A stretch of 64,000 bases of DNA from Flavobacteriales bacterium. GTDB taxonomy: Bacteria; Bacteroidota; Bacteroidia; Flavobacteriales; Schleiferiaceae. The stretch spans positions 3,759 through 67,758 of the forward strand of contig PAND01000018.1 in assembly GCA_002707525.1 (NCBI GenBank), read 5' to 3'. Of this stretch, positions 28,424 through 34,108 are shown one piece after another (the first letter of the stretch is position 1; each line of letters begins with the position of its first letter). The position numbers were made by a program, and so were the translations under genes. Under the pieces are notes generated by a model, which saw only the letters and a list, made by a program, of their open reading frames with translations, was not told where the DNA came from and made no database searches.

Positions 28424-28732
28424 AGCTAACAGTTTTGACGTTCTTAATTAATCTTAACACTACAATTATGCCAATTAGAATCAAATAAGATCATGATTCC
28501 TAAGATTTTGACGTTTTCTGTAGGTTTAAATTGAATTTACTCAATCATTTAATAGGATGTCACCCCAAAAAACAAAGGGGGTGTTTGTGCCTATTTATAA
28601 TTTTTTGTGTGCGTAACCCCTTTTTTAAACGGGGTCTTGTTTAAAATTAAGTAGTGTTTACATTACACTACCCTTATTTTTTAGGGGGTCTATTGCTTTT
28701 TGTATAGTTTTATACCCACAAAACCATCAAAA
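28424..28732. promoter_or_regulatory. Dyad-rich leader between the outer-membrane protein gene and the P-II/amtB operon
   Basis: 309 bases without a gene. Seen directly: a 10-base direct repeat TTTTGACGTT at 28433-28442 and 28506-28515; a 6-base stem CACCCC/GGGGTG (28561-28566, 28578-28583); an inverted repeat TTTTAAAC/GTTTAAAA (28623-28630, 28639-28646); and the operator-like dyad at 28651-28671. Several C4-5/G4-5 runs recur (28617-28620, 28631-28634, 28684-28688). This is unusual for the window and probably reflects nitrogen control of the downstream operon; no standard -7 element was found. Confidence 0.5.
28651..28671. promoter_or_regulatory. Operator-like 21-base palindrome upstream of the P-II gene
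   Basis: Perfect inverted repeat with 7-base arms GTAGTGT (28651-28657) and ACACTAC (28665-28671) and a 7-base spacer, centred about 72 bases before the P-II ATG. It has the shape of a dimeric transcription-factor site; the protein is not known. Confidence 0.45.
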
Positions 28733-29071
28733 ATGAAAAAAATAGACGCAATCATTAGAAAGTCGCTATTCGATGAAGTTAGAGACGCCCTTCACGAAGC
28801 GAATGTCTACTTCTTTAGTTACTGGGATGTAACTGGAGTAGGTCACGAAAAGAAAGGAAAAGTATATCGGGGGGTTTCATACAGCACTTCCGACATTCAA
28901 AGACGCTATTTAAGCATAGTTGTGAATGACGACTTTGTGAAGCCTACCGTAATCGCAATCCTTAAAGCCGGGAACACAGGAGAAGTTGGCGACGGGAAAA
29001 TATTTGTAACACCAGTTGAAGAAGCTTATCGCATAAGAACCGGTGAAAGCGGAGATCAAACACTGAAATAA
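28733..29071 (+). CDS. glnK: Nitrogen regulatory protein P-II
   Basis: 112 residues from ATG 28733; the in-frame upstream start at 28700 adds residues not found in P-II. The T-loop region has VTGVGHEKKGKVYRGVSY, with Tyr50 at the position modified in other bacteria. The B-loop is TGEVGDGKIFV and the C-loop RIRTGESGD. P-II senses ATP/ADP and 2-oxoglutarate and, as GlnK, binds and blocks AmtB. The amtB gene follows after 12 bases, which supports the GlnK assignment. Confidence 0.93.
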   Translation: MKKIDAIIRKSLFDEVRDALHEANVYFFSYWDVTGVGHEKKGKVYRGVSYSTSDIQRRYLSIVVNDDFVKPTVIAILKAGNTGEVGDGKIFVTPVEEAYRIRTGESGDQTLK

Positions 29072-29083
29072 CATTTAATTATT

Positions 29084-30334
29084 ATGGACACTACTTTAAC
29101 TCTTACAATAAACAACCTATGGATGATGATCTGTACCGCCCTGGTATTCTTCATGCACCTTGGATTCAGCTTTCTTGAAATTGGCCTTACTCGCCAGAAA
29201 AACACCATTAATATTTTATTTAAAAACTTTTTCATTATTAGCATCGGTCTTGTTCTTTACGCATTTGTTGGATTTAACCTCATGTATCCAGCGTCCTTTT
29301 GGAGCGGCGTTTTACCGGACTACTTTGTTGGCCTTTTTGGACTCGAAAGCCCAATGGGAGACAGCGGCCTTGACTTAACTTACAATGAGGGTTATACTTA
29401 TTGGACGGACTTCTTGTTCCAAGGTATGTTTGCAGCTACTGCGGCCACTATAGTCTCTGGAGCTATTGCTGAACGCGCAAAACTTGGTTCATTTTTCTTG
29501 TTTTCCATATTATACGTTGGAATTGTCTATCCTATTGTGGGCTCATGGAAATGGGGCGGCGGATTCCTAGATGAGTGGGGATTCTATGATTTCGCTGGAT
29601 CAACACTTGTTCACAGTGTTGGCGGCTGGGCTGCATTCTTATACATTGCCAAGTTGGGGCCAAGAATTGGTAAGTTCACAAAAGATGGTGCTCCATCGGC
29701 AATACCTGGACACAATCTACCTTTTGCAGCAGCAGGAGTCTTCATCTTATGGTTAGGATGGTTTGGTTTTAACGGCGGTTCAGTGTTAAGTGCAGATCCG
29801 AGTCTTACTTCTTTAGTTTTGACTACAACATCCTTGGCAGCCGCAGCAGGTGGTTTAGCTGCCGCAGGTTTTGTACACATCTTTCATAAAAACTTTGACT
29901 TAACTATGTTTATGAATGGCATTTTAGGCGGTCTAGTAGGAATCACCGCCGGTGCCGATCAAATGAGCGTTTTAGAAGCTATCATTATTGGTGGAATAGG
30001 TGGTGTTGTTGTTGTGCTCGGTGTTTCTTTACTTGACAAGTTAAAGTTAGACGACCCAGTAGGTGCTGTTGCTGTTCACTTATTCACTGGAATGTGGGGG
30101 ACCCTAGCTGTAGGCATCTTTGGTGCATTAGCTTCTTGGGATCAATTCTTAGTTCAACTCGCAGGTGTTGGCTTAGTAGGCGCTTTCTGCGTTATTAGCA
30201 CAACCATCTTCCTCACAGTGATTAATAAGATTTGGGGTCTTCGCGTAGATAAAAAAGAAGAGCTCGAAGGTCTTGATCAAGCGGAACACGGGGGAATGGC
30301 TGCATACGCAGACTTTCGTATGAACCAACATTAA
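29084..30334 (+). CDS. amtB: Ammonium transporter
   Basis: 416 residues, with about 11 hydrophobic membrane segments. The twin pore histidines lie in TLVHSVGGWAAFLY and VAVHLFTGMWGTLAV. The extracellular gate region and signature FQGMFAATAATIVSGAIAER and PAAGVFILWLGWFGFNGGS-like stretches are typical of the Amt family. It imports ammonium across the inner membrane and is controlled by the P-II protein encoded just upstream. Confidence 0.95.
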   Translation: MDTTLTLTINNLWMMICTALVFFMHLGFSFLEIGLTRQKNTINILFKNFFIISIGLVLYAFVGFNLMYPASFWSGVLPDYFVGLFGLESPMGDSGLDLTYNEGYTYWTDFLFQGMFAATAATIVSGAIAERAKLGSFFLFSILYVGIVYPIVGSWKWGGGFLDEWGFYDFAGSTLVHSVGGWAAFLYIAKLGPRIGKFTKDGAPSAIPGHNLPFAAAGVFILWLGWFGFNGGSVLSADPSLTSLVLTTTSLAAAAGGLAAAGFVHIFHKNFDLTMFMNGILGGLVGITAGADQMSVLEAIIIGGIGGVVVVLGVSLLDKLKLDDPVGAVAVHLFTGMWGTLAVGIFGALASWDQFLVQLAGVGLVGAFCVISTTIFLTVINKIWGLRVDKKEELEGLDQAEHGGMAAYADFRMNQH

Positions 30335-30355
30335 TAAAGTAATCTTAAAAAAAGC

Positions 30356-30383
30356 GACCCGAAGTGCTGCAACACCTCGGGTC
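30356..30383 (+). terminator. Hairpin between amtB and the outer-membrane protein gene
   Basis: Arms 30356-30366 (GACCCGAAGTG) and 30373-30383 pair with one mismatch around a 6-base loop, 22 bases after the amtB stop and 20 bases before the next ATG. No T run follows, so it may be partial termination or transcript stabilisation. Confidence 0.5.
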
Positions 30384-30402
30384 TAATAAAACAATTCTCG
30401 GT

Positions 30403-31437
30403 ATGAAAATTATTTTAACAAAAGTCTCAAAAATTTGGGTAATAGCAATATCCCTTTGTATTAACTACACAGTAAATGCACAAAGCACTGAAGATGAGTC
30501 CATAGAGTTATCTGGTTCAGTTGACACCTACTTCAGAACGAATCTTAGTGGCGGAGATAAACTTGATGCACCCGCCTCAAGTTTTGCAAACCTCAATGGA
30601 TTTGCACTAGGCATGGTGAATGTAAAAGCCGAACAAAGTACATCTCAAGGAGGATTTGTTGCAGATCTAGTCTTTGGCCCTAGAGGTACTGATGCTGTCT
30701 TTGCTTCGCCATATTACAGCGCCACAGGAAATATTGTGAACCAACTGTATGCCTACTGGAATGCAAATGAAAAACTCACGCTTACTTTAGGAAACTTCAA
30801 TACATTCTTGGGATACGAAGTAATATCTCCCGTGGACAACTTTCATTATTCAACTTCCTATTTGTTCTCATACGGACCATTTTCTCATACCGGTTTGAAA
30901 GCAGATTATGTTCTTTCTGATGACCATAGTCTTATGGTTGCAATCATGAATCCTACAGATTTGACTGAGATGAATGACGTAAACCTGTACACATACGGTT
31001 TGCAATATGGATTCAAAGACACCTATTTCAACTTCCTTTACGGCAAGCAAGCTGTTGACGCAGACGCAACTTTTCAAGCAGATATCACTGGGTCCTACGA
31101 ACTAAGTGATAAATTTTCCTTGGGCGTCAATGCTTCCTACAACGAAACTATGAATGCGGGCGGTTTTTATGGTGTAGCATTGTACCCCGCCTTGGCCATT
31201 AAAGACGGATTTGATGCTGGACTAAGAGTAGAGTATTTTAAGGAATTGGAAGCTGGTGGCGTTGCTTATGGAGCGGACAATTCAGTTATTGACGCTACAG
31301 TAACAGCAAGCTATACCACCAAAGACCTTAGACTTATCGCAGAACTTAGATTAGACCAAAGCTCTACGGCACAATTCAATTCGATGACTTCTGACCAATT
31401 ATCATCTTTCATATTAACCGCTGTATACTCTTTCTAA
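30403..31437 (+). CDS. Outer-membrane beta-barrel protein (BBP2-type porin) of the ammonium operon
   Basis: 344 residues from ATG 30403. A signal peptide ends near VNAQS, and the body is made of alternating strands (SGSVDTYFRTNLSG, LTLGNFNTFLGYEVIS, LGVNASYNETMNAG) closing with FILTAVYSF, as in outer-membrane barrels. The conserved LGNFNTFLGYE and SPVDNFHYSTSYLF pattern is that of the BBP2 family of putative beta-barrel porins. It follows P-II and amtB on the same strand behind an intergenic hairpin. A role in passage of ammonium or nitrogen compounds across the outer membrane is inferred from position only. Confidence 0.75.
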   Translation: MKIILTKVSKIWVIAISLCINYTVNAQSTEDESIELSGSVDTYFRTNLSGGDKLDAPASSFANLNGFALGMVNVKAEQSTSQGGFVADLVFGPRGTDAVFASPYYSATGNIVNQLYAYWNANEKLTLTLGNFNTFLGYEVISPVDNFHYSTSYLFSYGPFSHTGLKADYVLSDDHSLMVAIMNPTDLTEMNDVNLYTYGLQYGFKDTYFNFLYGKQAVDADATFQADITGSYELSDKFSLGVNASYNETMNAGGFYGVALYPALAIKDGFDAGLRVEYFKELEAGGVAYGADNSVIDATVTASYTTKDLRLIAELRLDQSSTAQFNSMTSDQLSSFILTAVYSF

Positions 31438-31484: not shown

Positions 31485-31925
31485 TTATTCGCAATCAAGT
31501 CCAAACTCATTTGTTTTTTTAACAAATAAATCCTTGAACTTATGTACTTCTTTTCCGCTTTCAGCCATTTCTTTTTTACTAATCAATTCCTCTAGGCCAT
31601 TACCTCTTTCTATCAAAACTACGGGCAGTGCAAAACCTGAAAAGTTAATCCGCATTTCTTCTGCTTCATTTGTATGGAGCACATAGTTTTCACACTTTAA
31701 TGCGCTAATCCAGGCTCTCCATTCGGGTTTAGCACTAACCGTACTGTGTGTGATATCACAAAGTTCGCAATGCTGATTTTTCAAATACTTTCCATACAAG
31801 TAGGAAATCTCACCGCCGATGGTGCCGCTTGCATTATAAATAAAATAGATTTTAGGGGACGTATTTTGAGCTTCTGAATTAAGCGAAGCTACTGCTAGGA
31901 AAAGAGCCAGGATTGATCGAAACAT
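31485..31925 (-). CDS. Small secreted protein with CxxC, last gene of the MbnP/MbnH-like operon
   Basis: 146 residues with a signal peptide (about residues 1-19, ending SEAQ). It has CELC followed by DITHS (residues about 53-61) and further Cys residues in KCENY and at the end. The arrangement YNAxG...C.LC..TH recalls a family of uncharacterised small bacterial proteins; I do not recognise a named domain. It starts 3 bases after the diheme peroxidase stop, so it is the last gene of the four-gene operon. The CxxC could serve thiol exchange or metal binding, which is inference only. Confidence 0.65.
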   Translation of the reverse strand: MFRSILALFLAVASLNSEAQNTSPKIYFIYNASGTIGGEISYLYGKYLKNQHCELCDITHSTVSAKPEWRAWISALKCENYVLHTNEAEEMRINFSGFALPVVLIERGNGLEELISKKEMAESGKEVHKFKDLFVKKTNEFGLDCE

Positions 31926-31928
31926 GAT

Positions 31929-32879
31929 TTAAAGGGTTTTTAGAAACTCTTCCAAAGCAACAAGTTCCTTTTCACTTAGGTTCAGCGGCTCAATCAATTC
32001 GCTAGTATATTCATGCCCTGAACCACCTAAATTATATTGGTTCAAAACATCCGTAAGCGTATTAATACTTCCATCATGCATATATGGCGCTGTACTTTGG
32101 ATATGTCTTAAGGACGGTACCATGAACGCAAATAAATCAGCGGAATCAAGTGTTAATTGTGCTCGACCATAATCTTCTGTGCTCGTGACCGTGCCATTAT
32201 TGTAAAAATCAAAACTTGTGAATAACGGACCACTGTGACAACGGCTGCAGTTGGCTTTACCAAAGAAGAGCGCTAATCCATTCTTTGCTTCATTGGACAA
32301 AGCATCTGTATTCCCTGCAACATATGCATCTAAGGGAGCGTCATTTGAAATCAAGGTCCGTTCAAATTGCGCAATTGCCCTGGTAATTGTATACGCGGTT
32401 GCACTATCATTAAATGCTTCAAAGAATTCACTTTGATAGGTCGAATCCGAATTTAACCTGTCTGCTAAGAGAACCATGTTGAATGCCATTTCATTATGTT
32501 CTTGAATGGGGACAAGAACTTGCATTTCTAAGGAAGGGACTCCTCCCTCTCTCATAAAATAAGGATGATAACCAACGTTCCAAAGCGATGGAGAATTTCG
32601 TTTACCCATCATGTCATTAACACCAGGGCTTACAGGAAGGTGATCTGCCATGCCAAAAGCAACTTTATGGCAAGAGGCACAGCTTATAGAAGTATCTAGG
32701 CTAAGAATTGGATCTGAAAAGAGACGTTCTCCCAAAGCAATTTTCTTATGGTCTAGCTGATTGTCTGCAGGGTATTCCATAACTGGCCATTGGGCAAGTT
32801 CATTCAGAATGAAATCCGTGTTGTTATTTTCACATGAAAAAAGAGCCAAAAAACTAAAAAGGCGAAGAATATCTTTCAT
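31929..32879 (-). CDS. Diheme cytochrome c peroxidase-family protein, MbnH/MauG-like
   Basis: 316 residues. The lipobox FSC gives Cys16, so it is probably a lipoprotein. Two heme-attachment motifs are present: CASCH (Cys67, Cys70, His71) and CSRCH (Cys211, Cys214, His215). Between them lie RNSPSLWNVGYHPYFMREGG and VPIQEHNEMAF, the conserved blocks of bacterial cytochrome c peroxidase and MauG relatives. The C-terminus is LNLSEKELVALEEFLKTL. Adjacent to an MbnP-like gene, it matches the MbnP/MbnH pairing, in which the diheme enzyme oxidises a Trp of MbnP to kynurenine. Simple H2O2-reducing CcpA is the alternative. Confidence 0.85.
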   Translation of the reverse strand: MKDILRLFSFLALFSCENNNTDFILNELAQWPVMEYPADNQLDHKKIALGERLFSDPILSLDTSISCASCHKVAFGMADHLPVSPGVNDMMGKRNSPSLWNVGYHPYFMREGGVPSLEMQVLVPIQEHNEMAFNMVLLADRLNSDSTYQSEFFEAFNDSATAYTITRAIAQFERTLISNDAPLDAYVAGNTDALSNEAKNGLALFFGKANCSRCHSGPLFTSFDFYNNGTVTSTEDYGRAQLTLDSADLFAFMVPSLRHIQSTAPYMHDGSINTLTDVLNQYNLGGSGHEYTSELIEPLNLSEKELVALEEFLKTL

Positions 32880-33159
32880 TAGAAATTAGTTCATAGTCTG
32901 TAAGTATTTGCAAAAATGCTTCTAAATCATCCTTGTCCTGTTCGCTAAGTATAAGCCCTGCAGCTGCAGTCATCACCAAAGCTTGATCCAAAGTTGGTGA
33001 CATTTGTAAACCATGATCATTATAGCTTGGAATATTTGGCGTGGGCAATTGACCGTATTCTAAAGCATACAGTGCTGTATCCCGAGTAGGTAAAGGTGTT
33101 CTTTTGGAGCAACCTATAACTATTAAGAATAAAAGAAATATAGTAGCCCAAGATTTCAT
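32854..33159 (-). CDS. Small lipoprotein resembling the tail of a diheme peroxidase
   Basis: 101 residues, lipobox VIGC (Cys17). No heme motif is present. The C-terminal part LILSEQDKDDLEAFLQILTD is closely similar in pattern to the C-terminus of its neighbour (LNLSEKELVALEEFLKTL) and to the end of diheme cytochrome c peroxidases in general. It starts 1 base after the stop of the MbnP-like gene and its end overlaps the peroxidase gene by 26 bases, so it is an integral member of the operon. Function is unknown. Confidence 0.7.
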   Translation of the reverse strand: MKSWATIFLLFLIVIGCSKRTPLPTRDTALYALEYGQLPTPNIPSYNDHGLQMSPTLDQALVMTAAAGLILSEQDKDDLEAFLQILTDYELISNERYSSPF

Positions 33160-33160
33160 T

Positions 33161-34108
33161 TTATCTAATCACAATTTTTGATGTTTTAGTAAAGCCTTTG
33201 TTAGATACTAGACAGATGTAGATTCCGGAACTTTTCAAAACTACAGGTTCTGACTCTTTTACTATGGACTGGTGTACAACTGATCCCAGGGCGTTGTAGA
33301 CAATCAACTCTGCTCCATCAACCCCATTAATAAAGACTTCACCATTTGAGGGATTTGGATGAACGCTCAAATGAGACCATGCCTCTTCCTGAAGAATCAA
33401 TGCTGAATTCCCATCTGCACTTTTAAACACGTTATTGTTGAAATTCTTCAATGCTTGAAAAGCATCACCCGTTTCACCATGAGAAATGGTCCCGTTAGAC
33501 ACAGGTATGTTTCGGATTAATTCAGCATAATCGGCCTGTATATCTAGAAGCATGGTGTCGTTTCCTAATAAAGATCCTGAGGTCGGAATAGTTTGCATGG
33601 CATAGTTGCCGTTGCCTAAGCCATGGAATTCAAAGGTTTGATTAAACGAAGTACCGCCAAGTCCTTCTGCACAAACAAAACGATAGCCTGCTGCCCAACC
33701 CCAATGCATAGATGGAAATTTAGGAGCTAATGGATGTGCTGCCGGGTATAGTGTAGGATCTAAATTATTTAAATCTGGTCCAACGCCGATTGCAAATCGT
33801 AACGCAGAAATACTATTGAAGTCCAATGAACCTAAATTCAAAGTGGTCGTTTCCTCGCTCATTGCATCTATCAAGTGGGTTTCGGGATATAAAAATGTAT
33901 CGCCTTGATTATAGATTACTTCTATATCATCCACATAATATTGAAGACGAGAAAACTTGAATTGGTTTCCTAAATTATTAAAGCCGATTAAAGAATCCGT
34001 TACGGGAACACCGTCCATATTATGATGAATATTTAGGACTAATTCTTTAGTCTGCGAATTCAACATGAAAGAGGTTAGAACTAAAATTAAGAGTATGATT
34101 CTTTTCAT
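33161..34108 (-). CDS. MbnP-like copper-binding protein with T9SS type A sorting domain
   Basis: 315 residues, signal peptide about residues 1-19. The family core is seen in RLQYYVDDIEVIY, ALRFAIGVG and the hallmark SMHWGWAAGYRFV (His135, Trp136, Trp138), followed by FEFHGLGNGN. After about residue 245 comes a type IX secretion C-terminal domain: SVHPNPSNGEVFINGVDG, then a beta-sandwich ending in GFTKTSKIVIR. Known MbnP proteins bind Cu(I) through His and a kynurenine made from Trp by MbnH. The sorting domain indicates export to the cell surface by T9SS. First gene of the operon. Confidence 0.85.
   Translation of the reverse strand: MKRIILLILVLTSFMLNSQTKELVLNIHHNMDGVPVTDSLIGFNNLGNQFKFSRLQYYVDDIEVIYNQGDTFLYPETHLIDAMSEETTTLNLGSLDFNSISALRFAIGVGPDLNNLDPTLYPAAHPLAPKFPSMHWGWAAGYRFVCAEGLGGTSFNQTFEFHGLGNGNYAMQTIPTSGSLLGNDTMLLDIQADYAELIRNIPVSNGTISHGETGDAFQALKNFNNNVFKSADGNSALILQEEAWSHLSVHPNPSNGEVFINGVDGAELIVYNALGSVVHQSIVKESEPVVLKSSGIYICLVSNKGFTKTSKIVIR

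Follow-up and report, generated by a model that had tools for sequence, protein, structure and literature searches.

MbnP/MbnH belongs to a small number of systems where a heme enzyme creates a copper site from tryptophan. A marine Bacteroidota carries, in the 64,000-nucleotide stretch of DNA analysed here (the window), an MbnP with a T9SS sorting domain beside a diheme peroxidase, and this locus raises the question of which genes belong to such a system and which enzyme would act on the MbnP. The original prediction was a four-gene operon, in which MbnP and the peroxidase were joined by two extra partners, a small lipoprotein and a CxxC protein. Four minus-strand ORFs were found at 31485-34108 with gaps or overlaps of 1, -26 and 3 bases, in agreement with the predicted layout. 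In the following, A denotes the full-length MbnH-like peroxidase gene of relatives, and B the surviving enzyme of the window. The features of the locus are:

33161-34108, minus strand: MbnP-family protein of 315 aa with signal peptide, MbnP domain (residues ~19-233) and T9SS type A sorting domain (Pfam PF20243, TIGR04183, model fold)
33164-33364, minus strand: T9SS type A sorting domain, residues 249-315 (TIGR04183 and fold match)
33695-33709, minus strand: M134-H135-W136-G137-W138, WxW motif
33623-33625, minus strand: His162, candidate copper-ligand His
32854-33159, minus strand: 101-aa ORF, predicted remnant of A (BLASTP, alignment, DNA; the last 35 aa match TIGR04039 positions 302-336)
33019-33159, minus strand: codons 1-47 of A in the remnant, fused in frame to the A tail
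32854-33018, minus strand: last 54 codons of A in the remnant (A tail)
31929-32879, minus strand: diheme peroxidase B, predicted lipoprotein (CCP_MauG, two CxxCH)
32667-32681, minus strand: CASCH, first heme attachment site of B
32235-32249, minus strand: CSRCH, second heme attachment site of B
31485-31925, minus strand: CxxC protein of 146 aa, lineage-specific neighbour (no family match)

The family assignments of MbnP were borne out. The profile search proposed as a check gave a match to Pfam MbnP well above cut-off (6.1e-24, 85.4 bits against 27), the sorting domain was recognized by TIGR04183 (37.7 bits against 23), and the hallmark MHWGWAAGYRFV begins at residue 134. Because a single-sequence search of the PDB gave no match and a profile search found 7l6g only with an E value of 0.033, the fold had to be compared directly. 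In the AlphaFold model (pLDDT 83) residues 19-233 matched MbnP of Methylosinus trichosporium (7l6g_C; Z 17.2, rmsd 2.9 over 203 residues), residues ~245-315 matched the T9SS C-terminal domains of RgpB, RemA and NucA, and all rows other than 7l6g either matched the C-terminal domain only or scored far lower. The equivalog TIGR04052 was hit with 36 bits, below its curated cut-off of 140. By these profile scores and the fold, the protein is a member of the MbnP superfamily outside the narrow TIGR04052 equivalog. It is a T9SS cargo by profile and fold, and the translocon protein SprA is encoded in the genome (6.8e-160), which points to export to the cell surface. Cytochrome c assembly proteins are encoded as well. 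Taken together, the families, heme sites and spacing observed at the locus are far beyond chance. Elsewhere in the genome two more MbnP-family lipoproteins (231 and 253 aa) are encoded in tandem with no adjacent peroxidase (G000:C12:56111-56650; L115:7022-8482), the second of them lacking the WxW motif.

An alignment of 19 T9SS-MbnPs showed M134, W136, W138 and H162 to be invariant, and both Trp residues and the downstream His were invariant across MbnP classes. MHWGWAAG of the window aligned to MAWNWQAG of 7l6g. A 2021 study of the M. trichosporium protein reportedly found the first Trp of WxW to be kynurenine and copper to lie near a His and a Met. We take W136 to be the position that is kynurenine in the Methylosinus protein, and by the same analogy M134 is likely to be the Met ligand of copper, and the secreted MbnP-type protein probably binds copper. 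In this organism W136 would become kynurenine, copper would be bound and the protein would be displayed at the surface.

The two extra partners did not survive comparison with related genomes. When the 101-aa ORF was compared by BLASTP with the closest congeneric loci, it gave two separate matches to one diheme peroxidase of ~354 aa, to residues 1-47 (~49% identity) and to residues 301-354 (~80%), and in these relatives the full-length gene, A, lies between MbnP and B. Alignment and DNA comparison indicated an in-frame internal deletion of ~253 codons by which both hemes were lost. These comparisons identify the "small lipoprotein" as what an internal deletion has left of A. Its tail and the start of B share 26 bases, and its 3' end probably persists because the start codon of B falls within it. 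The CxxC protein had no match in Pfam or NCBIfam, and its gene was present in only five of 88 genomes of the family, all of one genus, and the loci seen beyond that genus did not contain it. The four-gene operon with two new partners was thus rejected, the lipoprotein being the stump of A and the CxxC gene lineage-specific. Nor was the four-gene order found to be conserved: the order kept in relatives is MbnP-A-B, or MbnP-B-A in other families.

Genes around the locus were also noted. Genes for a PII protein, an ammonium transporter and a BBP2-type porin (window 28700-31437) are convergent towards the MbnP operon, and the transporter and porin occupy the same position in the closest relatives. 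Close relatives encode a DUF6992 protein upstream of MbnP (L035:4200-4811, L105:4386-4973), which in the window is not adjacent to MbnP. In several other genera and families the gene directly 5' of T9SS-MbnP encodes a protein of the HYC_CC_PP family, NF047658 (L069:5708-6163, L072:5707-6147, L134:4371-4817); the window lacks it.

B has the CCP_MauG domain (1.2e-45) and the two CxxCH motifs, CASCH and CSRCH, of the MauG/MbnH type, as had been predicted. The proposed MbnH/MauG search gave the domain and not the equivalog: B scored about 194-197 bits with the MbnH model TIGR04039 (cut-off 362.85) and 207 bits with the MauG model TIGR03791 (cut-off 444). Intact A of relatives scored higher with TIGR04039 (245-248 bits; 248 against 197 for B) and likewise stayed below the cut-off; its best solved match was 6e1c, over nearly its whole length (6e-55). 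A forms a strongly supported clade (22 rows) in which the interheme Trp (FWDGR) is always present, and B lies in a different part of the peroxidase tree, as a separate clade. Of the two, A is by profile and alignment the more MbnH-like enzyme and the one with the interheme Trp. The predicted MbnP/MbnH-like pairing thus stood insofar as a T9SS-cargo MbnP lies beside a diheme enzyme of the MauG/MbnH superfamily; it failed in that the surviving enzyme is not the MbnH-like one, which is the deleted A.

Is B then an ordinary CcpA? Its closest solved relatives by sequence are of the CcpA type. On the other hand, the alignment places a Tyr at the six-coordinate (second) heme ligand position in both A and B, Tyr282 of B being invariant in 14 B proteins, so that the sixth ligand of the second heme in B is predicted to be Tyr, not Met, as in MauG. 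In the fold search 6e1c (MbnH) and CcpA were tied (Z ~15), and with a pLDDT of 67 the model of B cannot separate MbnH from CcpA. B is devoid of the interheme Trp, with Arg110 in its place in the window and other non-Trp residues in other B proteins. MauG requires this Trp. Its importance is not absolute: BthA also lacks it and forms bis-Fe(IV) nevertheless (PMC6405878), therefore its absence does not exclude activity of B.

To see how often A is missing, 25 genomes of the genus were searched, most of the genomes compared being uncultured draft assemblies. A T9SS-MbnP locus was examined in 22 of them, and the remainder had no such locus. A was intact, or intact up to the contig end, in 16 of the 22, and lost in five: the window genome (G000) and G063 retain in-frame stumps of 101 and 69 aa, respectively, G064 and G070 have frame-shifted stumps, and G067 has no stump, B following directly after MbnP. 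G069 was considered as a sixth loss and not counted, its A tail ending at the contig end. The well-supported branches of a tree of MbnP and B force at least four independent losses of A; the window and G070 are sisters in this tree and may share one loss. Four of the five losses spared the 3' end of A, where it overlaps the start of B, and this, together with the position of B directly after MbnP in G067, argues for selection for B expression. We also looked for A relocated elsewhere in the A-less genomes; the best other match was a ~42% paralog found across most of the genus, and no ortholog was found.

Over a wider range, B adjoined T9SS-MbnP in 11 of 11 loci of a phylum-wide sample, and in six of these A lay directly next to the MbnP-B pair, in the order MbnP-B-A. 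The phylum tally of 13 genomes out of 296 is a lower bound, with only seven candidates per genome scored. The loci found with B as query, a search biased towards B, had the arrangement MbnP-A-B, MbnP-B-A or MbnP-B only. At one locus (L169:3975-7771) two MbnPs and two diheme enzymes alternate in the order non-T9SS MbnP, A, T9SS-MbnP, B. Loci with A only were found in the window's own family (L053, L060 and L062), and no close B was found in genome G016. B is therefore not universally required. Gene order nevertheless indicates that T9SS-MbnP and B are the core of the system and that B is the usual partner of T9SS-MbnP, and the ancestral cassette in the window's family would have been MbnP-A-B.

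These observations can be combined into a mechanism that we consider probable, a Bacteroidota-type MbnP system with a T9SS-exported MbnP whose Trp136 is oxidised by B, A having been deleted here. MbnP would be made with a signal peptide, and its C-terminal sorting domain would direct export via SprA onto the cell surface. The diheme lipoprotein B would oxidise W136 of MHWGW by means of peroxide and its pair of c-type hemes, the product most likely being kynurenine, and modified W136, M134 and H162 would form a Cu(I) site modelled on that of characterised MbnP. A would have been removed from MbnP-A-B by the in-frame internal deletion that left the 101-aa stump; it may have an auxiliary role, a different substrate or a redundant function. 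Since at least this genus can dispense with A but has retained B, the modification is more likely the work of B, and our best reading is that the kynurenine of MbnP is made by B instead of the canonical MbnH-like enzyme. To the stricter version, that B alone converts Trp to kynurenine on the surface MbnP without an interheme Trp and that A is an accessory repeatedly discarded, we give somewhat less than an even chance.

Of the alternatives, the one that survives best assigns the modification to another enzyme. Elsewhere the genome encodes a stand-alone MbnH-like diheme lipoprotein of 364 aa with an intact interheme Trp (G000:C23:10117-11106; L121:7115-8209), and a CopA-type copper ATPase ORF (L121:2641-4770) lies ~2.3 kb from it. 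This paralog could modify MbnP in trans, leaving B another job such as electron supply or peroxide removal. With the MbnH profile it scores highest of all matches in the genome (255 bits, B reaching 194), related genes with ~40-46% identity to A occur across most of the genus, including A-less members, and the nearby CopA-like ORF would also fit. However, the paralog adjoins no MbnP, its relatives occur in A-intact genomes as well and therefore do not track the loss of A, and it was B that adjoined T9SS-MbnP in every phylum locus. We regard modification in trans as improbable.

A slightly less probable alternative is that the locus is degenerating, MbnP having no kynurenine once A is gone, and MbnP and B being kept for some other purpose or on their way out. 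The repeated loss of A and the congeneric assemblies with no T9SS-MbnP match at all are what such decay would produce, but MHWGW is intact in every MbnP from the A-less genomes and the candidate ligands are invariant. Moreover, the dN/dS ratios of MbnP and B were ~0.06-0.14 in pairs with A-less members (synonymous sites being partly saturated), which indicates that both genes are still under purifying selection in the lineages lacking A.

It is quite unlikely that the 101-aa ORF encodes a functional small lipoprotein descended from A, for example a membrane anchor or scaffold for B. The ORF is in frame, its lipobox is kept, its C-terminal 54 residues are ~80% identical to A of relatives and G063 has a second in-frame stump; against this, its N-terminal half is poorly conserved, the stumps of G064 and G070 are frame-shifted, G067 has none, and two in-frame stumps is about the number expected by chance. 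Least probable is an assembly error, for although the window genome is a draft (28 contigs, ~91% complete), A and B are only ~33-36% identical, which makes assembly collapse unlikely, the five A-less genomes have five different endpoints, all inside contigs, and one of them, AG-919-D03 (G070), is probably a single-cell genome, as AG- identifiers presumably denote, so that co-assembly would not explain its loss of A.

In our literature search no paper was found on MbnP with T9SS or on MbnP in Bacteroidota, and T9SS export of MbnP, a usual partner (B) that lacks the interheme Trp, and the repeated deletion of an MbnH-like gene were not found described. The locus is of interest because the substrate MbnP appears to be displayed outside the cell by T9SS, and because the MbnH-like gene has been deleted at least four times independently within one marine genus that retained the substrate motif, which amounts to natural enzyme knock-outs. 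Which diheme enzyme acts, and whether tryptophan oxidation depends on the interheme Trp, is therefore directly testable.

Several known systems resemble the locus in part. MauG (TIGR03791) shares with B the diheme fold, the Tyr ligand position and the conserved distal-pocket Gln and Glu; it differs in its profile, as the scores above show, and no methylamine dehydrogenase genes were seen near the window locus. BthA of Burkholderia thailandensis is, like B, a diheme enzyme of the MauG superfamily that has a Tyr-His heme and lacks the interheme Trp (PMC6405878), but the interheme position is Ser in BthA and Arg in B, and B is linked to a gene for an MbnP substrate. In CorA/CorB and MopE/SACCP of methanotrophs a surface copper protein with kynurenine is encoded beside a co-transcribed diheme cytochrome c peroxidase (PMC3912023). 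A surface kynurenine copper protein next to a diheme peroxidase is thus not new as such, but the methanotroph systems are not T9SS systems. The closest likeness is to MbnP/MbnH of M. trichosporium (7l6g, 6e1c; TIGR04052/TIGR04039), with which the locus shares the MbnP fold, the WxW with a Met two residues before the first Trp, and a neighbouring diheme enzyme that has two CxxCH motifs and a Tyr where the heme ligand is placed. The locus departs from that pair in the T9SS tail of its MbnP, which scores below the TIGR04052 cut-off, and in the deletion of A, the MbnH-like gene. The enzyme that is left, B, has no interheme Trp and groups in a clade of its own, and no methanobactin genes were seen near the locus. 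In sum, the locus represents a genuine variant of the MbnP system in Bacteroidota.
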